Shown: positions 6,952 through 20,617 of the stretch, piece after piece
How positions within the stretch are numbered: position 1 is the stretch's first letter
Layout of the letters: each line of letters begins with the position of its first letter
DNA from: Acidimicrobiia bacterium
GTDB lineage: Bacteria; Actinomycetota; Acidimicrobiia; Acidimicrobiales; AC-14
Length of the DNA: 64,000 bases
Reading direction: 5' to 3'
NCBI GenBank assembly: GCA_023265025.1
Contig: JAHFUP010000003.1
Location: 1 to 64,000, forward strand
The notes under the pieces: model-generated
What the model was told of the DNA's origin: nothing
The model's database searches: none
What the model saw: the letters and a program-made list of their open reading frames with translations, nothing else
Made by a program: the position numbers and the translations under genes

Positions 6952-7887
6952 ATGACCGAGGCCCTGCCAGTCACTGGTCCCCTGCCACTGGAGCGCGAGG
7001 GCCTCGCCCCTGTGGCGCCCGGCCGCAGCCGGCTGGCCGCCTACATCGCCCTCACCAAGCCCCGGATCATCGAGCTGCTGCTCGTCACCACCGTCCCGGC
7101 CATGATCGTCGCCGAGCGGGGCATGCCGCCCGCCTGGCTGATCCTGGCCACCCTCGTCGGCGGCACCCTGGCCGCCGCCGGCGCCAACGCCACCAACATG
7201 GTGATCGACCGCGACATCGACAAGTTGATGCGCCGCACCAGCAAGCGGCCGCTCGTCACCGGCGAGATCACCCCCCGCAACGCCCTCATCTTCGCCATCG
7301 GGCTGGAGCTGGGCGCCGCCGTCTGGCTGGCGCTGGTCGTCAACCCCTTGAGCGCGGCCCTGGCTGTGGCCGCCACCCTCTTCTACGTCTTCGTCTACAC
7401 GATCTGGCTGAAGCGGACGTCGGTTCAGAACATCGTGATCGGCGGCGCCGCCGGCGCCGTCCCGGTGCTCGTCGGGTGGGCGGCGGTGACCAACGAGCTG
7501 GCCATCGCCCCGTTCGCCATGTTCGCCATCATCTTCGTCTGGACGCCGCCGCACTTCTGGGCCCTGGCCATCCGCTACCGGGCCGACTACGCGGCGGCCG
7601 ACGTGCCGATGCTCCCCGTCGTGGCCAGCTTCGAGGACACCACGAAAAAGATGGTGGTGTACACGCTTGTGCTCTGGGCGGTCAGCCTGGCCTTGTGGCC
7701 ACTCGGGTCGATGGGGCCGATCTACCTGGTCGCGGCGATGGCCCTGGGCGCCATGTTCACGTGGAAGGCCGTCCAGCTGGCCCGCAGCCACAACCCCGAC
7801 CTGGCCATGCGCCTGTTCAAGTTCTCCATCACCTACATCACCCTGCTGTTCGGGGCGATGGCCGCCGATCAGCTTCTTCTTCACTGA
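6952..7887 (+). CDS. ctaB: Protoheme IX farnesyltransferase (heme O synthase)
   Basis: This 311-residue UbiA-family membrane protein has the CtaB signature NATNMVIDRDIDKLMRRT near residues 80-97 and a second Asp motif near 200 (YRADYAAADVPML). It transfers a farnesyl group from FPP to heme b, giving heme O, the precursor of heme A. About seven to nine transmembrane segments are visible. Heme A would serve the aa3 oxidase at 16930-20970 and possibly the unusual CtaD paralogue at 8548. The last 50 bases overlap the convergent CtaG-like gene. Confidence 0.95.
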   Translation: MTEALPVTGPLPLEREGLAPVAPGRSRLAAYIALTKPRIIELLLVTTVPAMIVAERGMPPAWLILATLVGGTLAAAGANATNMVIDRDIDKLMRRTSKRPLVTGEITPRNALIFAIGLELGAAVWLALVVNPLSAALAVAATLFYVFVYTIWLKRTSVQNIVIGGAAGAVPVLVGWAAVTNELAIAPFAMFAIIFVWTPPHFWALAIRYRADYAAADVPMLPVVASFEDTTKKMVVYTLVLWAVSLALWPLGSMGPIYLVAAMALGAMFTWKAVQLARSHNPDLAMRLFKFSITYITLLFGAMAADQLLLH

Positions 7888-8437
7888 GCCTGGTCTGTTG
7901 CTCCTCGTGCCGGGCCCAGGCCGCGGCGACCACCAGCACGGCGGCGAGCAGGACCAGGTCGCCGGCCACCCACATGATCCCGCCGGCCAGGCGCTGGTCG
8001 GCCAGCGCATCGGGGACGCTCCCGTAGTGGGGGTAGAGGACGTCGCGGCTCGAGAAGATGGCCAGGGCCAGGAAGGTGTTCTGGGGCATGGCCACGGCCA
8101 GGTAGAGCAGGCGCAGCGGGTACGACAGCCGCGATTCGGTGGTCACGACCTGGACCCAGAACAGCACCGCGCCGCCGAGCAGGAGGGCGTGCTCGAAGAC
8201 GTGGACGGGAATGTTCTCGGTGGCCGTCTCGAACAGGGGGGTGAAGTGGACCAGCCAACCGGTGGCGGCGAACACCAGCCACGCCAGCAGCGGGTGGACC
8301 CGCGGCCGGCGGCGCACGCCGGCGGCCAGCAGCGGTGCCGCCACCATGGTCAGGGTCACGTGCTGCACCATGTGGGCGGCCAGGGTGGCGTCGGCCCGGG
8401 CGTCGACCGGCGGGCTGATGGCCACGGCGACGACCAC
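7838..8437 (-). CDS. Short CtaG-like membrane protein (caa3_CtaG family)
   Basis: The 199-residue reading has AAHMVQHVTLTM near its start, the HMVQH motif also present in the full CtaG at 20981, and four to five transmembrane helices. CtaG proteins of this type assist copper insertion into cytochrome oxidase. This copy is about 90 residues shorter than the second one and lacks its N-terminal helices. The GTG at 8437 cuts into a hydrophobic run that continues upstream to a CTG at 8452, with an in-frame stop at 8485. Either the start is non-standard or the gene has lost its 5' end. It faces the CtaD-paralogue operon divergently, which suggests a role in assembling that complex. Confidence 0.7.
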   Translation of the reverse strand: MVVAVAISPPVDARADATLAAHMVQHVTLTMVAAPLLAAGVRRRPRVHPLLAWLVFAATGWLVHFTPLFETATENIPVHVFEHALLLGGAVLFWVQVVTTESRLSYPLRLLYLAVAMPQNTFLALAIFSSRDVLYPHYGSVPDALADQRLAGGIMWVAGDLVLLAAVLVVAAAWARHEEQQTRLSEEEADRRPSPRTAG

Positions 8438-8547: not shown

Positions 8548-10290
8548 ATGGCGATGACCGACACAGAGGTGGCAGAAGGGGCAGCGCCCGGGGCCACCGG
8601 CCTCTCGCAGCCGGTCGCCGACCTTCCTGACGCCTGGCCCAAGGGCACCGACCACAAGACCGTCGGGTCGTGGTTCGTTGCCGCCGCCCTCGTCTTCCTG
8701 GTCGCCGGGGTGGTGATGGCGCTGCTCATGCGGGCCCAGCTGACCTCCGCCGACGCCGACATCGTGGGCGACCGCACCTACCGCCAGCTGTTCACCATGC
8801 ACGGCGTGCTGTCGGTGTTCCTGTTCCTGCTGCCCGTCTGGCTGGGCCTGGGCTCGGCGATCGTCCCCTTGCAGATCGGGGCCGCCCGCCTGGCGTTCCC
8901 CCGCCTGCACGCCATGGCCTTCTGGCTCTTCCTCGGCGGCGGCGCCATGGTCGTCGCCGCGCCGGCGCTCTCCGACGTCTTCCACGGATGGGCCCTGAGC
9001 GACCCGATCCCGGTGAAGCTGGGCCTCCCCGGCCAGGGGCCCGACTTTCTCCTGCTCGGGCTGATCGTGGTGTGCATGGCGGCGATCCTGGTGATCGTCA
9101 ACGTCCTGGTCACGATCCTGCAGCTCCGGGCACCCGGGATGACGCTCCGGCGGGTCCCGGTGTTCAGCTGGTCGATCATGGTCTCCGGAGCCGTGCTCCT
9201 CCTCGCCCTCCCGATCCTCATCGGGGCCTTCGGGCTCCTCTTCGTCGACCGCCACTACGGCTCGTCGCTGTTCAGCGGGTTCACCGGCAGCCGGGGCGGC
9301 AACCCCCTCGTCTGGCCCCGGCTGTTCTGGTTTGGCGCCTACCCCGTCCTGTGGGCGCTGCTCATCCCCGCCCTGGGCGCGGTCAGCGAGATCGTCGCCA
9401 CCTTCGCCGGCCGGCCGCTCTTCAGCCGGGAACGGGCATCGGCCGCCCTCGTCGGTGTCGGCGTGCTCAGCTTCGCCGGCTGGGGCAGCGAGGTCTCCAC
9501 GCTGCCGCGGGCTCGCGTCCTCTTCATCCTGGGGGCCCTGGCCGTACTCGCCCCCGTTGCCTCGCTGGTCCTCAACTGGCTGATGACGCTGCGCCTGGCC
9601 GGCAAGGAGGGCGACCGCGACGCCCTGCGGGGGAGGTTCACGGCCACGCCGATGCTGTGGGCACTGGGCATGCTGCCCGTGCTGGCCCTGGGCCTGGCCG
9701 CGTCGGTGGTCTCCGCCGTCGACGCCGGCCGCGAGGCCCATGCCAACTACTGGCAAGCCGGCCAGCAGCACGCCCTGTTCTTCGGCGCCGCCACCATCGG
9801 CGCGGTCGCCGCCCTGAGCTTCTGGGGCCCGAAGCTGTGGGGCCGGCGCCTTTCCGCGGCCCTCGGCAAGCTGGAGGTGCTCGCCGTCGTCGGCGGCACC
9901 CTCCTGACCGTGCTGGGTATGCTGCTCCTGGGTGTCCAGGACATGCTGGTCCACACATCCACCTTCGATTCCGGCGACGACTGGGCCCTCGGCAACCTGA
10001 TCGTCTCCGCCGGCGCCGCCATCGTCGGCCTGGGCCTCATCGTCCTGCTGCTCGACCTCCTGACCAGCATCCTGGGCCGTCGGGGTCGGGCCGCCGGCGC
10101 CGACCCGTGGGGCGGGCAGACCCTGGAGTGGGCCACGCCCTCGCCGCCGCCGATCCACAACTTCGACGCCCTGTTGGAGATCCGCTCCGGAACGCCGCTA
10201 CTCGACCTCCGCACCGCCCAGCCCTGGGCGGCCGAATCCGAATCGACCCAATCCGAATCCGACCTCGTGCCCGAGGGGCAGTCCAGCTGA
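8548..10290 (+). CDS. CtaD paralogue lacking the oxygen-reduction site
   Basis: This 580-residue, roughly 12-helix protein aligns along its length with the true CtaD at 17955, from TDHKTVG to the C-terminal TLEW and SPPP motifs. It keeps the two low-spin heme ligands: His85 in FTMHG and His408 in GQQHALF. All other key residues are replaced. The CuB His of HPEVY is Ala264, the following Glu is Pro, the His-His pair is Ser317-Thr318, and the high-spin heme His is Gln406. The D-channel Asp is Arg, the K-channel Lys is hydrophobic, and the Arg pair that binds heme propionates is Val-His. It may therefore bind one heme and carry electrons, but it should not reduce oxygen or pump protons. It is the first gene of an operon with a subunit III homologue and a cupredoxin. 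Confidence 0.9.
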   Translation: MAMTDTEVAEGAAPGATGLSQPVADLPDAWPKGTDHKTVGSWFVAAALVFLVAGVVMALLMRAQLTSADADIVGDRTYRQLFTMHGVLSVFLFLLPVWLGLGSAIVPLQIGAARLAFPRLHAMAFWLFLGGGAMVVAAPALSDVFHGWALSDPIPVKLGLPGQGPDFLLLGLIVVCMAAILVIVNVLVTILQLRAPGMTLRRVPVFSWSIMVSGAVLLLALPILIGAFGLLFVDRHYGSSLFSGFTGSRGGNPLVWPRLFWFGAYPVLWALLIPALGAVSEIVATFAGRPLFSRERASAALVGVGVLSFAGWGSEVSTLPRARVLFILGALAVLAPVASLVLNWLMTLRLAGKEGDRDALRGRFTATPMLWALGMLPVLALGLAASVVSAVDAGREAHANYWQAGQQHALFFGAATIGAVAALSFWGPKLWGRRLSAALGKLEVLAVVGGTLLTVLGMLLLGVQDMLVHTSTFDSGDDWALGNLIVSAGAAIVGLGLIVLLLDLLTSILGRRGRAAGADPWGGQTLEWATPSPPPIHNFDALLEIRSGTPLLDLRTAQPWAAESESTQSESDLVPEGQSS

Positions 10291-10958
10291 TGTCAATGGT
10301 CGCCGTCTCCACCACCGCCGCCGACAACCTGCCGGTCCCGGCCTCCGACCAGGCGCCGGTCGTCCTGCCCACCGGCGCCCCGCTGCCCGGCCGGGTCCCC
10401 GGCCGTCCCCGTCCCGGCACCACCACGATCGGCGCCTTGCTATTCGTCACCGCCGACTTCATGGTGCTGGCCGCGATCGTGGCGGTGTACCTGGCCATCA
10501 AGGAGGGGTCGGTCACATGGCCGCCCAAAGGGGTCCAGGTCGGCACCTACATCCCGACGATGATGACGATCACCGCGTTGATGTCGGCGTTCTCGGTCCA
10601 GTGGGGCATGTTCGCCGCCCGCCGCAACGACGGGCGCAACGCGGCCATGGCCCTCGGCCTGACGCTGTTCCTCGGGCTGGCGATGGCCAACCTGGACTGG
10701 CTGTCCTTCGTCCGCAGCGGCTTCGGCTTCAACGACCACCCCTACGGCACCCTCTACGACGTGCTGATCGGCTTCCACCTGCTTCACCTGCTGGCCGCCA
10801 TCGTCGTTCTGCTCCTGCTCGCCTTCCGCACCGTGGCCGGCCATTTCTCCGGCGACCGCCACGACGCGCTGCGGGCGGGCGTGGTCCTGTGGCAGTACTC
10901 GAACGCGGTGTGGTTCGTGGTGGTCACCGTCCTGTTCATCCTCAGCAGGCACGGCTAG
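10290..10958 (+). CDS. Cytochrome oxidase subunit III homologue, paired with the CtaD paralogue
   Basis: This 222-residue membrane protein has a 40-residue Pro/Thr-rich N-terminus and five apparent helices. GFHLLHLL near 165 matches the GFHGxHV helix of subunit III, and LWQYSNAVWFVVV matches the YWHFVDVVW segment of CtaE. It lacks the extra N-terminal two helices of long subunit III proteins, as does the CtaE at 19994. The ATG at 10290 overlaps the preceding TGA, so translation is probably coupled. Subunit III carries no cofactor and stabilises subunit I; its presence argues that the CtaD paralogue still forms an oxidase-like complex. Confidence 0.88.
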   Translation: MSMVAVSTTAADNLPVPASDQAPVVLPTGAPLPGRVPGRPRPGTTTIGALLFVTADFMVLAAIVAVYLAIKEGSVTWPPKGVQVGTYIPTMMTITALMSAFSVQWGMFAARRNDGRNAAMALGLTLFLGLAMANLDWLSFVRSGFGFNDHPYGTLYDVLIGFHLLHLLAAIVVLLLLAFRTVAGHFSGDRHDALRAGVVLWQYSNAVWFVVVTVLFILSRHG

Positions 10959-10964
10959 CGACCC

Positions 10965-11948
10965 ATGCTCACCCCCACCTCCAAGCTCTTCCTGCCCGTC
11001 GCCGGCGTCGCCCTCTTCCTGGGCGCGGTCTACAAGATCATCAGCGGCGACCTGCTGGGCTCCGTCCTGTACCTGATGGTCGGCGCGGCCGCATTCCTTC
11101 TCGGGGTCATGCTCTCCTCGATCCGGGAGAACGAGTACGCGCCGGCGATGGCACCCAACGCCCCGCCGCCGGGCGTGCGGCCGGTGGCCGTCGCCCCGCT
11201 ACCCGGCGGTGGCGGGTGGCCGGTGGCGGGTGGCATCGCCGTTGCGCTGGTCATGGTCGGCCTCATCCAGCATCCGGTGTTCACCTGGGCCGGCGTGCTC
11301 GTCGGGATGGTGGCCGGCGCCGGCTGGCTGGCCCGGTCGGCCTCGGAGTCCACCGGGCGCCCGATCAGCCTGCTGCCCCTCGGTCTGCCGGTCCTCGGCT
11401 TGGCCACGATCGCCAGCGTGATGTTCTTCCTGTCACGGATCCTGCTCGCCGTGCCCGAGGCGGCCTCCACCGCCATTGCGCTGTCCGTCGCCGTCCTCAT
11501 CCTGGGGGCCGCCAGCCTCGCCGCCGTCCGTCCCAACATCACCGGGCGCACGTTGGCCACCGCCCTCGCCATCGGCACCGTGCTCATGGTCGGCGGCGGC
11601 ATCACCGCCGCCGCGGTGGGTGAGCGCCACCTGGAGAAGCATTCCGAGGAGCACGCCGGCGAGGCCGGCCTCGTCCAGCTCAAGGCCGAAGGCGTCACCT
11701 TCAAGACCGACCACATCGAGCTGGCGGCCGACGAGGAGGTCGAGGTCCGGTTCGACAACAACGACCGCGACGTCCAGCACAACTTCGCCATCTACGGCGC
11801 CGACCCGTCCAAGCCCGTGTTCCGGGGCCAGCTGGTCAGTGGTGTGGCGACGGTGTCCTACAAGTTCCACGCCCCGGGGGTCGGCGAGTACAAGTTCCAG
11901 TGCGACGTGCACCCGACCCAGATGAAGGGCACCGTCACAGTGAAGTAG
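10965..11948 (+). CDS. Membrane protein with C-terminal cupredoxin domain
   Basis: In this 327-residue protein two helices at 8-22 and 32-50 resemble the start of actinobacterial CtaF. Two to four more helices follow (about 86-120 and 138-218). The last 95 residues form a cupredoxin, with His272 in QHNF and the ligand loop Cys313-x2-His316-x3-Met320. That is a single type 1 copper site; a CuA site would need two Cys in the loop. The domain should face outside the membrane and shuttle electrons. It lies six bases after the subunit III homologue and clearly belongs to the same operon, so it is the likely redox partner of the heme in the CtaD paralogue. Confidence 0.87.
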   Translation: MLTPTSKLFLPVAGVALFLGAVYKIISGDLLGSVLYLMVGAAAFLLGVMLSSIRENEYAPAMAPNAPPPGVRPVAVAPLPGGGGWPVAGGIAVALVMVGLIQHPVFTWAGVLVGMVAGAGWLARSASESTGRPISLLPLGLPVLGLATIASVMFFLSRILLAVPEAASTAIALSVAVLILGAASLAAVRPNITGRTLATALAIGTVLMVGGGITAAAVGERHLEKHSEEHAGEAGLVQLKAEGVTFKTDHIELAADEEVEVRFDNNDRDVQHNFAIYGADPSKPVFRGQLVSGVATVSYKFHAPGVGEYKFQCDVHPTQMKGTVTVK

Positions 11949-11960
11949 CGCGGAACGCGC

Positions 11961-12395
11961 TCAAGGGCGCATCGCGCACGCCCGGCAGTGCCCGGTCACC
12001 GCGAAGTGGCGGGGCTGGAGGGCGAACCCGAACTCCGCCTGCAGCCGCCCCCGCAGGTCGGCGAACACCTCGTCGGGCACTTCCTCCACCGCCCCGCACC
12101 CGTCGCACACCAGGTGGTGGTGGGCGTCGGCGGCCAGGTGGTAGACGGCGGGCCCGTGGCCGAGGTGCACGTGGTCGACCACGCCCAGGCGCTCGAGCTC
12201 GTCCAGGAAGCGGTACACGGTCGACTCGTGGACGTCGGGCTGGACGGCCTGGACCCGGGCGGTGAGGGCTTCCGCGGTCACGTGCCCGGCGACGCCGAGG
12301 AGCGTCTCGAGGATGGCGCGACGGGACGTGGTGACCCGCCCGCCCCGGGCCCGGAGGAGGGCGAGGATCGGCTCGGCCTTCTCCCGAACAAGCAT
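11961..12395 (-). CDS. Fur-family metal-responsive repressor, probably Zur-like
   Basis: This 144-residue protein has a winged-helix domain (residues 1-85, with the VTTSRRAIL and ESTVYRFLDELERLG helices) and then a dimerisation domain. The domain holds HHHLVCDGCG at 92-101 and HCRAC at 136-140, two CxxC pairs that bind structural zinc. It diverges from a zinc/manganese-type ABC transporter operon, which favours a Zur role over iron or peroxide sensing. It ends 13 bases from the cupredoxin gene in convergent orientation. The start is ATG at 12395. Confidence 0.88.
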   Translation of the reverse strand: MLVREKAEPILALLRARGGRVTTSRRAILETLLGVAGHVTAEALTARVQAVQPDVHESTVYRFLDELERLGVVDHVHLGHGPAVYHLAADAHHHLVCDGCGAVEEVPDEVFADLRGRLQAEFGFALQPRHFAVTGHCRACAMRP

Positions 12396-12443
12396 GGCCC
12401 GAGCGTAGCCGTCGCGTCGCTGTAGCGAGCAGCTTGCGATAGC
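12396..12443. promoter_or_regulatory. Divergent promoter region between the Fur/Zur gene and the metal ABC operon
   Basis: Only 48 bases separate the two starts. The stretch includes the dyad TCGCTGTAGCGA and an overlapping imperfect repeat around GCGAGC and TTGCGA. It is the natural place for an autoregulatory operator, but I cannot match it to a defined Zur box. Confidence 0.35.
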
Positions 12444-13457
12444 GTGCAGCTCGTGCGAGGAAGAGGACGGCTCTCCGTGGCCGCGTCCGCGGCGGCCCTC
12501 GCCCTCGTGGCGGGGGCGTGTGGCACGGGGGCCGGCGCCGGCGCCGACGACCTCGCCAAGCTGAACGTCGTCACGACGGTGTCCCCGCTGACGAGCATCG
12601 TCGCCGGCGTGGCCGGCGACCTGGCCGAGGTTCGCGGCCTGATCCCCGAGGGCGCCGATTCCCACACCTTCGAGCCTCCCCCGAGCGCGGCGCGGGCCCT
12701 GGCCCGGGCCGACGTCGTGTTCGTCAACGGCCTGAAGCTCGAGGACCCAACCAAGGATCTGGCCAAGGGCAACCTCAGGAAGGGCGCCGAGGTCGTCGAG
12801 CTGGGCGGGCGCACGATCACGCCCCAGCAGTACCTCTACGACTTCTCGTTCCCCCGGGCCGAGGGCAAGCCCAACCCCCACCTGTGGACCAACCCGCCCT
12901 ACGCCCGCCAGTACGCCCGGGTCGTCCGGGATGTGCTCGCCCGCCGTGATCCGGCCCACGCCGGCGGGTACATCGCCAACTACGAGGCGTTCGGGGCGAC
13001 AGTCGACGAGCTGGACAGGGCGATGGCGGCGGCCAGCGCCACGGTGCCCCGCCGGCAGCTGCTGACGTACCACGACGCCTACGCCTACTTCGCCGAGCAC
13101 TACGGCTGGACGGTGATCGGCGCCGTCCAGGTGTCGAGCTTCGAGGAGCCGACCCCGCGGGAGGTGGCGGCGCTGATCCGCCAGGTCCGCGAGGTCGGGG
13201 TGCCGGCGATCTTCGGCTCCGAGGTCTTCCCGAGCAAGGTGCTGGCCCAGATCGGCACCGAGGCCGGCGTCCGCTACGTAGACACCTTGCGTGACGACGA
13301 CCTGCCCGGCCGCCCCGGCGAGCCCGACCACTCCTGGCTCGGCCTGATGAAGTTCGACTTCGTCACCATGGTCGAGAGCCTGGGCGGCGACGCGACCGCC
13401 CTGAAGTCCGTCCGGGCCGCGCCCGCCGGCCCCGACCAGGCCGTGTATCCCCAGTGA
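12444..13457 (+). CDS. Zinc/manganese ABC transporter substrate-binding lipoprotein (ZnuA-like)
   Basis: This 337-residue protein has a signal peptide ending in a lipobox with Cys near residue 26 (LVAGAC). The cluster A-I binding-protein fold follows. Likely metal ligands are the His in SHTFEP near 73, the His in PNPHLW near 147, a His/Glu in the second lobe, and Asp in YVDTL near 278. It lacks the long His-rich loop of many ZnuA proteins, so Mn is also possible. The start is GTG at 12444, with GTG at 12453 an alternative. It opens a three-gene operon with four-base overlaps. Confidence 0.88.
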   Translation: MQLVRGRGRLSVAASAAALALVAGACGTGAGAGADDLAKLNVVTTVSPLTSIVAGVAGDLAEVRGLIPEGADSHTFEPPPSAARALARADVVFVNGLKLEDPTKDLAKGNLRKGAEVVELGGRTITPQQYLYDFSFPRAEGKPNPHLWTNPPYARQYARVVRDVLARRDPAHAGGYIANYEAFGATVDELDRAMAAASATVPRRQLLTYHDAYAYFAEHYGWTVIGAVQVSSFEEPTPREVAALIRQVREVGVPAIFGSEVFPSKVLAQIGTEAGVRYVDTLRDDDLPGRPGEPDHSWLGLMKFDFVTMVESLGGDATALKSVRAAPAGPDQAVYPQ

Positions 13458-14260
13458 GTGAGTCGCTCCTCCGCCTCGAAGGTGTCACCTGTGCCTACGA
13501 CGGCGCCCCGGTGTTGGTGGGTGTCGACGTGGACATCGCCGGCTCCGAGTTCCTGGGCATCGTGGGCCCGTCCGGGTCGGGCAAGACGACCCTGCTCCGG
13601 GCCATGCTGGGGACGGTCGAACCGGTGGCCGGGCGCATGTGGCGCCGGCCGGGGCTGCGGATGGGCTACGTCCCCCAGGTCGAGACGGTGAACTGGAGCT
13701 TTCCCGTGACCGTCGCCGAGGCCGTCCTCATGTCCCGGACGACGGGCCGGCGCCTGCCGTGGCCCTCGGCCGCGGAGAAGGCCGAGGTGGCGTCGGTGCT
13801 CGACCGCCTCGGCATCGGCGGTCTCGGCACGCGCCACATCCGCGAGCTGTCCGGCGGCCAGCAGCAGCGGGTGTTCCTGGCCCGGGCCCTCCTGCGCCGG
13901 CCTCAGCTCCTCCTGCTCGACGAGCCGACATCGGGGGTCGACGTCCGCACCCGCCACGACATCCTCCACCTGCTGGCCGACCTCAACCTCGCCGGCCTGG
14001 CCGTCGTCCTGACCACCCACGACCTGAACGGGATCGCCGCCCACCTCCCGCAGCTCGTGGGCCTGAACACCGAGGTGACCGGGCGGGGCACGCCCCGCGA
14101 GGTGCTGACCCCCGACGTCCTGGAGCGCACGTTCGGTGCCCCCATGGAGGTCCTCGACCACGACGGGATGCTGATCGTCGTCGACCCCGCCGAACTGGTG
14201 ACACGAACGGTGGCCAGGGCCACCATTTCCGTCACCAGTTCGAGGGGGGAGGCGTCGTGA
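13454..14260 (+). CDS. Metal ABC transporter ATPase
   Basis: This 268-residue protein has a Walker A GPSGSGKTT near 37-45, the signature LSGGQQQR near 137, Walker B LLLLDEP near 155 and the switch His in TTHD near 193. The long C-terminus after 220 is typical of ZnuC/MntB-type ATPases. GTG at 13454 overlaps the upstream TGA by four bases, and its own stop overlaps the permease start in the same way. Confidence 0.93.
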   Translation: MSESLLRLEGVTCAYDGAPVLVGVDVDIAGSEFLGIVGPSGSGKTTLLRAMLGTVEPVAGRMWRRPGLRMGYVPQVETVNWSFPVTVAEAVLMSRTTGRRLPWPSAAEKAEVASVLDRLGIGGLGTRHIRELSGGQQQRVFLARALLRRPQLLLLDEPTSGVDVRTRHDILHLLADLNLAGLAVVLTTHDLNGIAAHLPQLVGLNTEVTGRGTPREVLTPDVLERTFGAPMEVLDHDGMLIVVDPAELVTRTVARATISVTSSRGEAS

Positions 14261-15132
14261 CGTGGCTGACGGAGCCTTTCGAGTTCGCCTTCTTCCGCCA
14301 CGGGGTCATGGTCGCCACCATGGCCGGCGCCCTGTGCGGCCTGATCGGCGTCTACGTCACCCTCCGGGGCATGAGCTACATCGGCCACGGCCTGTCCCAC
14401 GCCATCTTCGGCGGGGCGGCGGCCTCCGCCCTCGTCGGCTTCAACTTCTATCTGGGCGCCGGCCTCTGGGGCATGGCATCCGCCCTGGCCATCGGTCGGG
14501 TGACCCGCCGGCGCATCATCGGCTCCGACGCCGCCATCGGGGTGATCACCACCGCCTCCTTCGCCTTCGGCATCGCCCTGCTCGGCCTCTACGGCCAGGT
14601 CCGCACGAGCATCGACGCCGCCATTTTCGGCAGCGTGCTGGGCGTCACGGCGGCCGACGTGTGGGTGGTGGCCGGCGTGACCCTCGCCGCCGGCGCCGTC
14701 GTCTTCGCCTTCTACCGCAAGCTGCTGTTCACCACCTTCGACCCCGAGGTGGCCGACGTCTCCGGAGTGAACACCGCCCGCATGGACGCCCTGCTCATGC
14801 TGCTGCTGTCGGTATCGATCCTGGCGACCATGAAGGTGCTCGGCGTGGTCCTGATCGCCGCCATCCTTGTCATTCCGCCGGTCGTGGCCCGGATGCTGAC
14901 CAACAGCTTCGCCCGCATGCTCTGGCTGTCGACGCTGGTCGGGGCCCTGTGTGGCTTCGTCGGCATGATCTTGAGCTTCCACCTCGACGTCTCGTCGGGG
15001 GCGACGATCGTCCTGGTCGGGGCGGCCGTCTTCGCCGTCGTCTTCGCCGTCACCGGCCCCGGTGGCCGCCGGCAGGCGGCAGGCCTCGACGCCCACGACG
15101 CTCCGGTCGGGGCCGGCCGGCCCGGCCGGTAA
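14257..15132 (+). CDS. Metal ABC transporter permease (ABC-3 family)
   Basis: This 291-residue protein has about eight or nine transmembrane helices and the ABC-3 features GMSYIGHGLSHA near 46-57 and VNTARMDALLML near 185. It exports nothing itself but forms the channel for the binding protein and ATPase encoded just upstream. GTG at 14257 follows GGGGGAGG at ideal spacing. The tail after residue 270 is hydrophilic and rich in Gly, Arg and Ala. Confidence 0.93.
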   Translation: MTWLTEPFEFAFFRHGVMVATMAGALCGLIGVYVTLRGMSYIGHGLSHAIFGGAAASALVGFNFYLGAGLWGMASALAIGRVTRRRIIGSDAAIGVITTASFAFGIALLGLYGQVRTSIDAAIFGSVLGVTAADVWVVAGVTLAAGAVVFAFYRKLLFTTFDPEVADVSGVNTARMDALLMLLLSVSILATMKVLGVVLIAAILVIPPVVARMLTNSFARMLWLSTLVGALCGFVGMILSFHLDVSSGATIVLVGAAVFAVVFAVTGPGGRRQAAGLDAHDAPVGAGRPGR

Positions 15133-16929: not shown

Positions 16930-17934
16930 GTGCGACGCAACCGCCGTTTGGCTGCCTTCAGCGCCAGCCTCTTCCTCTTCCTTGCCGCCTGCGCAGGAAA
17001 CGCGCCCCAGGACACCCTCGAGCCGAAGGGGCCGGTCGCCAGGCAGATCGACCACCTCATCAACCCGGTGTTCATCGTGGCCGGCGTGGTGTTCGTGCTG
17101 GTCGAGGGCCTGGTCCTGCTGGCCGTCATCAAGTTCCGGGCCCGACCCGACTCCCCGGAGCCCGAGCAGATCCACGGCAACACGCGGTTGGAGGTGGGCT
17201 GGACGCTCGCGCCGGCCCTGATCCTCCTGGCCGTCGCCGTGCCGACGATCGCCACCATCTTCGACCTGTCCAAGAAGCCGGAGAACGCGGTCAACGTGAC
17301 CGTGATCGGCCACCAGTTCTGGTGGGAGTACCGCTACGAGGACCTCGGCGTGGTCACCGCCAACGAGCTCCGGATGCCCGTCGGGCGCCCGGTCGAGCTG
17401 ACCCTGAACAGCGACGACGTGATCCACAGCTACTGGATCCCGCCGCTGGGTGGCAAGACCGACGTCGTCCCCGGCCGGAACAACACGATGCACCTCGAGG
17501 CCGAGACCCCGGGCGAGTACCTCGGCCAGTGCACCGAGTTCTGCGGCGCCTCCCATGCCAACATGCGGGCCAAGGCCATCGCCATGGCCCCCGCCGACTT
17601 CGACGCCTGGGTGGCGGGCCAGAAGGCGGCGGCCCCGGCGCCGGCGGCCGGCACCATGGCCGAGGAGGGTGCCTTGCTCTTCGCCCAGAAGGGCTGCGGC
17701 GGCTGCCACACCGTCCAGGGCGTCTCGGAGGGCAAGATCGGGCCCAACCTGACCCACCTGGCCACCCGCACCACCTTCGCCGGCAGCATCTTCAACAACA
17801 ACGACCAGAACCTGCGTACGTGGCTCCGCGATCCCCAGGCCGCCAAGCCGGGGAACAAGATGATCATCCCGGGCGGGCCGCTCGCCCCCGACGAGATCAC
17901 CAAGCTCATCGCCTACCTGGATACCCTCCGATGA
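16930..17934 (+). CDS. ctaC: Cytochrome c oxidase subunit II with fused cytochrome c
   Basis: This 334-residue lipoprotein-like precursor (FLAACAG near residue 20) has two transmembrane helices (about 43-65 and 88-112). The CuA domain contains HSYWIPP and the CuA loop GQCTEFCGASHANM. The C-terminal class I cytochrome c has CGGCH near 256 and an axial Met near 310. It is thus a caa3-type subunit II that accepts electrons from a cytochrome c or bc1 complex and passes them to heme a. The start is GTG at 16930 with AGGAAG upstream. Confidence 0.96.
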   Translation: MRRNRRLAAFSASLFLFLAACAGNAPQDTLEPKGPVARQIDHLINPVFIVAGVVFVLVEGLVLLAVIKFRARPDSPEPEQIHGNTRLEVGWTLAPALILLAVAVPTIATIFDLSKKPENAVNVTVIGHQFWWEYRYEDLGVVTANELRMPVGRPVELTLNSDDVIHSYWIPPLGGKTDVVPGRNNTMHLEAETPGEYLGQCTEFCGASHANMRAKAIAMAPADFDAWVAGQKAAAPAPAAGTMAEEGALLFAQKGCGGCHTVQGVSEGKIGPNLTHLATRTTFAGSIFNNNDQNLRTWLRDPQAAKPGNKMIIPGGPLAPDEITKLIAYLDTLR

Positions 17935-17954: not shown

Positions 17955-19997
17955 ATGGCAATCGTCACGCCGCCGCGGCCGGAGGCCCTGGCGCCCGAGC
18001 AGCCCCTCAACAAACCCGTCCGCTTCATCCGCCGGCCCACCGGCTACACCCCCGGGATCTGGGGGTGGATGACCACCGTCGATCACAAGAAGATCGGCAT
18101 CATGTACTCGGTCACCGCCTTCTTCTTCTTCCTGATCGGCGGTATCGAGGCCCTGCTCCTGCGCATCCAGCTGGGCGGCCCCGACCAGACCTTCCTGCGG
18201 GCGGACACCTACAACCAGGTGTTCACCATGCACGGCACGACGATGATCTTCCTCGTCATCATGCCGCTGTCGGCCGGCCTGGCGAACTACCTCCTGCCGA
18301 TCATGATCGGGGCGCGCGACGTCGCCTTCCCCCGCCTCAACGCCCTGGGCTACTGGGTCTTCCTCGCCGGCGGCCTGTTCATGTACTCCAGCTTCTTCCT
18401 GGGCGGGGCGCCCAACGGCGGGTGGTTCGGGTACGTCCCCCTGACCCGGAACCTGCCCGGCCACAACGTCGACTACTGGGTCTTCGGCCTCCAGATCCTC
18501 GGCATCGCCTCGCTGACCGGTGCGGTCAACCTGATCGTCACCGTGATCAACATGCGGGCGCCGGGCATGAGCCTGATGCGCATGCCCATCTTCGTGTGGA
18601 TGAGCCTGGTGGCCCAGTTCCTGCTGCTCTTCGCCATCCCGGTCATCACCGTCGCCCTGTTCCTGCTCAGCTTCGACCGGCTGTTCTCCACCAACTTCTT
18701 CAACGTCGCCGCGGGATCGGATCCACTCCTCTGGCAACACCTCTTCTGGTTGTTCGGCCACCCGGAGGTGTACATCCTCATCCTGCCGGCCATGGGCATC
18801 GTGTCCGAAGTGCTGCCGGTGTTCTCCCGCAAGCCGCTGTTCGGCTACCAGGTCATGGTGTTCTCGGGCATCGCCATCGGCTTCATGGGCTGGGGCGTGT
18901 GGGCCCACCACATGTTCGCCACCGGCCTCGGACCGGTGGCCGTGTCCGCCTTCAGCGCCTCGACGATGTTCATCGCGGTGCCGACGGGCGTGAAGATCTT
19001 CAACTGGATCAGCACGTTGTGGAAGGGGAAACTCACCTTCCCGACCCCGATGCTCTTCGCCATCGGGTTCGTCGCCATGTTCACCATCGGTGGGCTGTCC
19101 GGCGTGACCCACGGCGTCGTGCCCGCCGACACCCAGCAGACCGACACCTACTACATCGTCGCCCACTTCCACTACGTGCTCTTCGGCGGGAGCATGTTCG
19201 GCCTCTTCGCCGGGGCCTACTACTGGTACCCGAAGTTCGCCGGCAAGTTGCTGAACGAGCGGCTGGGCAAGATCCACTTCTGGCTGATGTTCATCGGCTT
19301 CAACATGACGTTCGGCCCGTTCCACATCCTGGGCCTCCAGGGCATGCCCCGCCGCATCTACACCTACCCGGAGGGCCGGGGCTGGGACGTGTGGAACCTG
19401 GTGTCCACCATCGGGTCGTTCGTCATCGCCCTGTCGATCCTGACCTTCTGCATCAACGTCCTGAAGACCCGGAAGACGCAGCAGGACGTGGGCGAGGACC
19501 CCTGGGACGCCCGCACGCTCGAGTGGACGATCCCGTCGCCGCCGCCGGAGTACAACTTCAAGGAGATCCCGCTCGTCACCAGCCGCGACGAGCTGTGGCA
19601 CCGCAAGTACACCGAGGACGACGACGGCCGCAGCGTGCGCCGTGCGGTCACCCTCGAGCAGCCCGAAATGCCGGGGACCGAGGTGGAGCCCTCGACCGAC
19701 GCCCACGACGGCCCGGACCACGCGGAGGGCGACGATGGCCATACGGACCCGGCTCACGACGACGAGGAGCACGAGCCGCACATCCACATGCCGTCGCCGT
19801 CGTACTGGCCGCTGCTCACCGCCCTCGGCCTGCCGATCCTGTCCTACGGGATGATCTACAAGACCTGGGCCGTCGCCATCCTGGGCGGCGTCTGGATCTT
19901 CGGCAGCATCTACTCCTGGGCCCTCGAGCCGGCGACCGCCCCCGAGGACCTGCCCGACCACGGCTCGGACGAGAGCCTTGAGGCGGTGCACGCATGA
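17955..19997 (+). CDS. ctaD: Cytochrome c oxidase subunit I (canonical), with C-terminal helical extension
   Basis: This 680-residue protein has every heme-copper oxidase ligand: His93 (FTMHG), His269 with Glu271 (HPEVY), His318-His319, Lys347 of the K channel, His404 and His406 (AHFHYV), and Asp122 of the D channel. It reduces oxygen to water and pumps protons. After the usual end (SPPPEYNF near 540) comes an acidic His/Asp-rich linker. Two extra helices follow at about 615-655 (YWPLLTALG and VAILGGVWIFG), resembling a fused small subunit IV. It is the reference for judging the defective paralogue at 8548. Confidence 0.97.
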   Translation: MAIVTPPRPEALAPEQPLNKPVRFIRRPTGYTPGIWGWMTTVDHKKIGIMYSVTAFFFFLIGGIEALLLRIQLGGPDQTFLRADTYNQVFTMHGTTMIFLVIMPLSAGLANYLLPIMIGARDVAFPRLNALGYWVFLAGGLFMYSSFFLGGAPNGGWFGYVPLTRNLPGHNVDYWVFGLQILGIASLTGAVNLIVTVINMRAPGMSLMRMPIFVWMSLVAQFLLLFAIPVITVALFLLSFDRLFSTNFFNVAAGSDPLLWQHLFWLFGHPEVYILILPAMGIVSEVLPVFSRKPLFGYQVMVFSGIAIGFMGWGVWAHHMFATGLGPVAVSAFSASTMFIAVPTGVKIFNWISTLWKGKLTFPTPMLFAIGFVAMFTIGGLSGVTHGVVPADTQQTDTYYIVAHFHYVLFGGSMFGLFAGAYYWYPKFAGKLLNERLGKIHFWLMFIGFNMTFGPFHILGLQGMPRRIYTYPEGRGWDVWNLVSTIGSFVIALSILTFCINVLKTRKTQQDVGEDPWDARTLEWTIPSPPPEYNFKEIPLVTSRDELWHRKYTEDDDGRSVRRAVTLEQPEMPGTEVEPSTDAHDGPDHAEGDDGHTDPAHDDEEHEPHIHMPSPSYWPLLTALGLPILSYGMIYKTWAVAILGGVWIFGSIYSWALEPATAPEDLPDHGSDESLEAVHA

Positions 19998-20617
19998 CCG
20001 ACGTGATCAGCGCCGCCGCTGGCAGCCACACCGAAGTCGAGCCCGGGCACCCGCCCACGTCCACCGGTCTCACCAACGAGAAGGTGGGGATGTGGGCGTT
20101 CCTGGGGTCGGAGTGCCTGCTCTTCGGCGCCCTGATCTCGACCTACCTGCTGTTCAAGGGCCAGAGCGCCCCCGGCACGATCACGCCGCACGACGTCTTC
20201 GACATCCCCTACACCTCGGTCAGCTCCTTCGTCCTGCTGATGAGCAGCCTCACCATGGTGCTGGCCCTCGCCGGCATCCAGCGGGGCGACCACCGCCTCA
20301 CCCGCGTGTGGCTGCTGACCACCGCCCTCCTCGGCGCCAGCTTCGTCGCCGGCCAGGCCTACGAGTTCACCGTCTTCGTGCGCGAGGGCATGAACCTCCG
20401 GGTCAACCTGTTCGGGTCGAGCTTCTTCGTCCTCACCGGGTTCCACGGCGCCCACGTGACCATCGGCGTGCTCATGCTTCTCTCGCTGTACAGCCTCTCG
20501 CTGAAGGGGAAGCTGCCGGCCGAGAAGGCCGAGACGGTCGAGCTGGTCGGTCTCTACTGGCACTTCGTCGACGTGGTCTGGATCGTGATCTTCACCCTCG
20601 TGTACCTCATCCCATGA
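19994..20617 (+). CDS. ctaE: Cytochrome c oxidase subunit III
   Basis: This 207-residue membrane protein of five helices has GFHGAHVTIG near 147-156 and YWHFVDVVWIVIF near 186-198, both diagnostic of subunit III. ATG 19994 overlaps the ctaD stop by four bases. The five-helix form is usual in actinobacteria. Confidence 0.96.
   Translation: MTDVISAAAGSHTEVEPGHPPTSTGLTNEKVGMWAFLGSECLLFGALISTYLLFKGQSAPGTITPHDVFDIPYTSVSSFVLLMSSLTMVLALAGIQRGDHRLTRVWLLTTALLGASFVAGQAYEFTVFVREGMNLRVNLFGSSFFVLTGFHGAHVTIGVLMLLSLYSLSLKGKLPAEKAETVELVGLYWHFVDVVWIVIFTLVYLIP

Follow-up and report, generated by a model that had tools for sequence, protein, structure and literature searches.

An oxidase-like module without an oxygen-reduction site is conserved beside the caa3 oxidase genes of Acidimicrobiales

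The aa3- and caa3-type oxidases of actinobacteria are composed of CtaC, CtaD, CtaE and CtaF, and mycobacteria and corynebacteria possess a bcc-aa3 enzyme whose subunit I is likewise catalytic. Subunit I of the heme-copper oxidases has its N terminus in the cytoplasm, and its outer half holds the hemes and meets subunit II. Here we describe a subunit I homologue that has lost its catalytic ligands, encoded in a 64,000-nucleotide stretch of an Acidimicrobiia bacterium (GenBank assembly GCA_023265025.1, contig JAHFUP010000003.1, positions 1 to 64,000, forward strand; hereafter, the window). The gene is the first of three packed genes (8548-11948, +), which we refer to as the dead module, upstream of the genes for an active caa3 oxidase. 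An earlier interpretation made from the letters of the window (the sequence-only reading) proposed that the module carries electrons through one heme, perhaps as a copper- or quinone-linked redox module, or regulates the oxidase. Our analysis, on balance, favors a non-catalytic accessory or scaffold of the neighboring caa3 oxidase, which would descend from a different COX1 lineage that lost CuB once.

Gene 1 (8548-10290, +) encodes a dead subunit I of 580 amino acids with the COX1 fold and 12 transmembrane (TM) helices. It matched PF00115 (COX1) with 258 bits, against a cutoff of 34.8, and, as the sequence-only reading had stated, aligned along its length with the canonical CtaD of the window (17955-19997); the identity was 31-32%. 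The AlphaFold2 (AF2) model was confident, with 12 helices, a predicted local distance difference test score (pLDDT) of 86 and a predicted template modeling score (pTM) of 0.89, and it superposed on subunit I of Rhodobacter sphaeroides (3fye) with a Z score of 49.4 and a root-mean-square deviation of 1.5 Å over 489 residues. Against TIGR02891, the NCBI equivalog for CtaD, gene 1 scored 364.2 bits, under the cutoff of 670.75, as compared to 739.6 bits for the canonical CtaD. A scan of the module proteins against NCBIfam turned up no better family. A close orthologue of gene 1 is found on a contig of the uncultured Acidimicrobiales bacterium AVDCRST_MAG10.

The alignment showed that gene 1 retains a bis-His low-spin heme site, consisting of His85 (codon 8800-8802, +) and His408. 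All three CuB histidines are replaced, by Tyr265 (9340-9342, +), Ser314 and Glu315 (9487-9492, +), and the high-spin heme histidine is replaced by Gln406, within the Gln406-Gln407-His408 segment (9763-9771, +). Other residues of the catalytic machinery are also gone: the glutamate that follows His-Pro is Val267, the cross-linked tyrosine is Trp269, the D-channel aspartate is Arg114, the K-channel lysine is Leu340 and the heme-propionate arginine pair is Val468-His469. The sequence-only reading had listed most of these losses correctly, the propionate pair being one that it did not mention. It had placed the CuB substitution at Ala264, one residue from the true position, and the substituted His-His pair at Ser317-Thr318; the losses themselves stand, and the two numbering errors do not affect the conclusion.

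We also considered whether another histidine might serve at the CuB or high-spin heme site. Gene 1 contains nine histidines in total, and helices TM6, TM7 and TM8 have neither His nor Cys, which excludes a substitute ligand; therefore, no oxygen-reduction site can form. The ligands of a NorB-type nitric oxide (NO) reductase, three FeB histidines and a glutamate, are absent as well, as they would occupy the same columns as CuB. Judged by its residues, then, gene 1 is not an oxygen reductase in function, since the defining ligands are missing, and it is predicted to be able to hold one low-spin heme. The ten genomes of the window's family, the window included, agree with this assignment: the four active-site histidines are absent and both low-spin histidines are present in 10/10, with no ligand restored in any of them. 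Arg62 is also kept in 10/10, and the propionate arginine pair is gone in most. In canonical oxidases, the residue equivalent to Arg62 contacts the formyl group of the low-spin heme.

The two other genes of the module, described by the sequence-only reading as a subunit III and a type 1 cupredoxin in the same operon, were likewise borne out. Gene 2 (10290-10958, +) overlaps gene 1 by ATGA and encodes a divergent subunit III with the COX3 fold (PF00510, 65.2 bits; cutoff, 23.8), which is 24% identical to the canonical CtaE of the window. Gene 3 (10965-11948, +) follows after a 6-nt gap and encodes a membrane protein with approximately seven TM helices that ends in a cupredoxin domain (11649-11945, +; PF13473, Cupredoxin_1, 36.4 bits; also PF00127) carrying the four type 1 copper ligands H272, C313, H316 and M320. 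This copper motif is conserved in the window's family wherever gene 3 is complete. The first half of gene 3 (10965-11348, +) resembles CtaF, or subunit IV. It gave no direct Pfam match to PF12270 (CtaF), only a profile-profile match (hhalign against CtaF rows, probability 85.7%, E 5.5e-6), and a profile of this half recovered true CtaF open reading frames behind other ctaD genes, the CtaF identity of which was checked. The AF2 model of gene 3 was poor (pLDDT 60). In one genus, gene 3 contains two tandem cupredoxin domains (L059:5741-7162, -; L061:2098-3861, +). The module thus appears to comprise subunits I, III and IV-like and to lack its own subunit II, and the CtaF-like half of gene 3 supports a multi-subunit origin.

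The dead gene was found in 41 of the 60 genomes searched, which included the window's own genome and its relatives. The order ctaB, dead subunit I, dead subunit III, gene 3, ctaC, ctaD, ctaE is the same in approximately 40 families of Acidimicrobiales, in further genomes from a class-level search and in loci named Ilumatobacter, Candidatus Microthrix and Ferrithrix thermotolerans; across the order, gene 3 is a CtaF-like membrane protein with or without the cupredoxin. With a caa3-type CtaD defined by at least 63% identity to the CtaD of the window, 36/60 genomes possessed one, and 35 of these 36 carried the dead gene, a count taken over related, non-independent genomes, many of which are metagenome assemblies. 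The lone exception (G010) is 84% complete and has the gene at a contig edge. Neither gene was present in 18 genomes. The remaining six possessed the dead gene and gave no full-length caa3 CtaD match; in five of them, a short contig, the end of a contig or a broken frame affects the module or CtaD. In the sixth, G033 (L038:3419-8197), gene 3 is shortened to 144 amino acids, no ctaC or ctaD adjoins the module and the genome has no caa3-type CtaD match, which makes genuine decay, following the disappearance of the oxidase, a possibility for this module. This nearly perfect tracking of the caa3 oxidase makes a partner or regulator of the oxidase, which the sequence-only reading had offered as one option, the better fit.

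All complete local ctaD genes have six intact histidines, and a search of related loci, which returned mostly active oxidases, found all six in every COX1 frame outside the dead clade. No dead copy has the CuB triad; the CuB histidine is replaced in all 54, by Tyr, Thr, Arg, Gln and others.

These 54 dead copies form one clade with a branch support of 100/100, and on the rooted tree CuB was lost once, at the base of this clade. A tandem duplication of the adjacent ctaD was tested as the origin; a joint clade of the dead copies with the adjacent caa3 ctaD was rejected by the approximately unbiased (AU) test (p-AU 2.6e-5), and grouping with the genome's second, aa3-type oxidase was weakly disfavored (p-AU 0.0385), on a tree whose long branches may mislead. 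Rejection of the joint clade indicates that the dead copies derive from another A-type oxidase lineage rather than from a local duplication. This separate descent, the CtaF-like half of gene 3 and the extent of the module over the order had all escaped the sequence-only reading.

The heme sites were lost later and unevenly. Clade B (L066, L067, L068, L072 and L103) and L071 still have the high-spin heme histidine. Members of clade B keep three heme histidines, the low-spin pair and the high-spin ligand, with Arg in place of the CuB histidine, and their dead subunit I may hold two hemes and no copper. The low-spin pair is kept in 19/54 copies (all ten of the window's family, most of clade B, L063, L071 and L035) and lost in 35. 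Of the 52 copies scored for the cupredoxin, 18 have it, 16 of them together with the heme pair, and 34 do not; among the heme-pair-less orthologues, it is absent from gene 3 in 32 of the 34 that could be scored. A graded series is seen in L071, with both heme pair and cupredoxin, L035, with the heme pair only, and the remainder of clade C, with neither. The clade lost its metal centers stepwise, CuB first, followed by the high-spin heme and finally by the low-spin heme. Since most copies have lost the heme site and the module is retained, the protein must act other than by catalysis.

To assess selection, we obtained the ratio of nonsynonymous to synonymous differences (pN/pS) by direct count. 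Within the genus, this ratio was 0.26-0.29 for gene 1, 0.30 for ctaD and 0.22 for ctaB, and it was 0.19 in a heme-less pair of dead subunits I. Purifying selection on the dead subunit I is therefore equal to that on the active ctaD. Neither a broken frame nor relaxed selection, the marks of a pseudogene, is seen in gene 1, and the frames are open in almost all dead copies. The view of the sequence-only reading that the gene is not decaying, which it had based on the intact 580-codon frame and the tight operon, is thus upheld.

Conservation is also specific to one face of the protein. We used as reference the 85 columns that are conserved in at least 95% of 82 active COX1 sequences. At a threshold of 80%, the window's family keeps 54 of these columns and the heme-less clade 33. 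When columns were assigned to sides from the model helices and the known orientation of subunit I, with a threshold of 75%, the heme-less clade was found to keep 27/43 columns on the cytoplasmic side, 6/15 in the middle and 3/27 on the outer side (cytoplasmic versus rest, p 1.6e-4). Every clade retains the cytoplasmic loops and the C-terminal tail, and the outer half has diverged. The tail of gene 1 (DPWGGQTLEW...PSPPP..NFD...IRS..PLLD; 10102-10212, +) is conserved even in the heme-less clades. New residues have become fixed in the heme-less clade, e.g., Arg at ctaD position 49 (94%) and Gln at the position of the CuB histidine (76%). This pattern is one of constraint on a scaffold, not of decay.

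We propose that an ancestor of Acidimicrobiales acquired these genes at its caa3 locus, either from elsewhere or by formation in place, that they stem from a COX1 lineage distinct from the adjacent ctaD and that the CuB site was lost a single time, at the outset. The product would act as a scaffold in the membrane, docking mainly via its cytoplasmic face and C-terminal tail onto the active caa3 oxidase or an assembly intermediate. It could regulate the enzyme, serve as a platform for its assembly or belong to it permanently as a subunit. The window's family retains ligands for a single low-spin heme and a single type 1 copper, and these sites, if occupied, might permit a copper-heme electron relay inside the accessory. 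In most of the order both centers are gone, which would leave the scaffold role alone.

Several observations weigh against this proposal. Gene neighborhood and co-occurrence may reflect the co-inheritance of one locus rather than contact with the caa3 oxidase. Other orders of the class and lineages elsewhere in the phylum have the caa3 locus without the dead module, so that the oxidase has no general need of it. Finally, the divergence of the outer face is partly a consequence of heme loss, because the hemes sit on that face, and is not proof of a cytoplasmic docking site.

The strongest alternative to an accessory of the caa3 oxidase is an assembly factor, a transient platform outside the finished enzyme that, together with the neighboring CtaG proteins and the cupredoxin of the module itself, would hand copper or heme to CtaC or CtaD. 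The second half of gene 3 resembles the membrane cupredoxins that follow ctaG in the caa3 loci of other Actinomycetota; such proteins occur right after ctaG in other orders and classes. The module genes also come after ctaB, a gene of the heme A pathway, and CtaG is a candidate CuB assembly factor (PMC9145763). However, most orthologues have neither heme ligands nor cupredoxin and so cannot carry a cofactor for delivery, and in the heme-less genomes that we looked at, no free-standing cupredoxin of the ancestral type turned up. We regard an assembly-factor role as unlikely, while giving it more weight than any other competing explanation.

A self-standing redox module, in which electrons would pass from the cupredoxin to one low-spin heme and on to quinone, the caa3 oxidase or another acceptor, appears improbable. 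It accords with the conservation of H85, H408 and Arg62, and of the copper motif, in the window's family, and with the joint distribution of the heme pair and the cupredoxin across the order (16 genomes with both, 32 with neither and 2 and 2 discordant). We considered this joint loss as possible proof of a redox pair and rejected it, as it amounts to two changes per trait on the tree and the independent-pairs test, with n = 2 pairs, is uninformative. Moreover, the four discordant genomes indicate that either center can go alone, heme-less modules persist under selection and the heme-propionate arginine pair is lost in most of the window's family. Since most orthologues have neither the heme pair nor the cupredoxin, a copper-heme relay cannot be the conserved function, and the proposal of the sequence-only reading that the module carries electrons through one heme is not supported as a general account.

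Slow decay, in which a redundant oxidase set has been caught before disappearing, is very improbable. Relative to ctaD in the same genomes, the dead copies have branches several times as long, and the cofactor sites were lost in steps, as decay would have it. On the other side, the pN/pS values and open frames described above, together with the synteny kept in approximately 40 families and the newly fixed residues, largely refute this explanation, and the candidate case of real decay, in G033, is where one would be expected. That the protein still reduces oxygen or NO at an unusual active site is hardly credible, and for the window protein this is refuted short of a metal site without precedent, since the COX1 fold, the one heme site and the high-spin histidine of clade B are outweighed by the lack of His and Cys in TM6-TM8, the replaced CuB histidine in all 54 copies and the loss of the D- and K-channel residues, the glutamate and the tyrosine.

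The genes around the dead module in the window are those of a caa3 locus. Upstream is ctaB, for heme O synthase (6952-7887, +; PF01040, 226 bits), which is the conserved neighbor by synteny. Approximately 5 kb downstream are ctaC, encoding a subunit II with a fused cytochrome c of the caa3 type (16930-17934, +; COX2 and Cytochrom_C domains), ctaD, encoding the active subunit I with all six histidines (on the + strand), ctaE, encoding the canonical subunit III (19994-20617, +; PF00510, 71 bits), and ctaG. The interval between the module and ctaC (11961-15132) contains a frame for a Fur-like regulator (-) and a ZnuA-type metal ATP-binding cassette (ABC) transporter set (+); in the related genera G005 and G006, gene 3 directly abuts ctaC. 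A second Caa3_CtaG protein of 199 amino acids (7838-8437, -; 138 bits) is encoded opposite to ctaB, the end of which it overlaps by 50 bp. This extra gene is oriented divergently to the dead module and present in several genomes of the family, and similar extra copies are found near ctaB elsewhere in the phylum.

We also observed, in the class but outside the order, a second, unrelated family of COX1 proteins lacking histidines; it is of the cbb3 (CcoN) type and occurs in at least 30 genera (L177:6090-8219, -; L213, L214 and L215-L232). One such protein, in G070, carries the same membrane cupredoxin as a fusion and is encoded within the caa3 locus. In L234, L235, L239, L241 and L242, the genes of this type adjoin genes resembling a bc-type complex locus.

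In its widest form, our proposal would be that the whole order builds its caa3 oxidase with or through a dead, mostly cofactor-free core of subunits I, III and IV, the first pseudoenzyme complex among heme-copper oxidases, and that, in a sister lineage, this cupredoxin partner was joined by an unrelated dead subunit I of the cbb3 type. We put this forward tentatively, as a conjecture that may well be wrong. Subunit I of the heme-copper oxidases is defined by its metal centers, and the at least 54 sampled copies with stepwise losses provide a natural series for the study of non-catalytic scaffold function. Automatic annotation will label these genes as cytochrome c oxidase subunit I and inflate the oxidase counts of Acidimicrobiales, including Ilumatobacter, Microthrix, Ferrithrix and many metagenome genomes. 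Should the module belong to the working enzyme, models of actinobacterial respiration will need a new class of subunit.

In the open-access literature, we found no description of such genes or of a pseudoenzyme in the heme-copper oxidase superfamily, an absence that is not proof of novelty; the genes are unmentioned in the available portions of PMC8239418 and PMC9145763. Among described systems, the actinobacterial aa3 and caa3 oxidases share with the module the COX1 fold and length, a subunit III partner, a CtaF-like partner, the tail PWxG.TLEW..SPPP..NF and, in the window's family, the low-spin histidine pair. They differ from it in having CuB ligands, a high-spin ligand, proton channels and their own subunit II, and most orthologues of the dead subunit I have no heme ligand at all. 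Subunit I of the bcc-aa3 enzyme (6hwh, 6adq and 7qhm) is among the best sequence and fold matches and has a similar C-terminal tail, but it is catalytic, and the dead clade is separate, with no clean grouping with bcc-aa3. The membrane cupredoxins linked to Caa3_CtaG in Actinomycetota share with gene 3 a membrane anchor and a type 1 cupredoxin beside the caa3 locus, features also seen in the Cup proteins noted near COX genes (PMC8239418). In contrast to all of these, gene 3 has an extra CtaF-like half and lies in a dead-oxidase operon, and most of its orthologues have no cupredoxin. The module is also comparable to the pseudoenzyme subunits of respiratory and other complexes, for which the retention of an inactive paralogue beside the active enzyme is a known general concept; what is unusual here is that this has occurred in a superfamily defined by its metal centers and that it spans an entire order.

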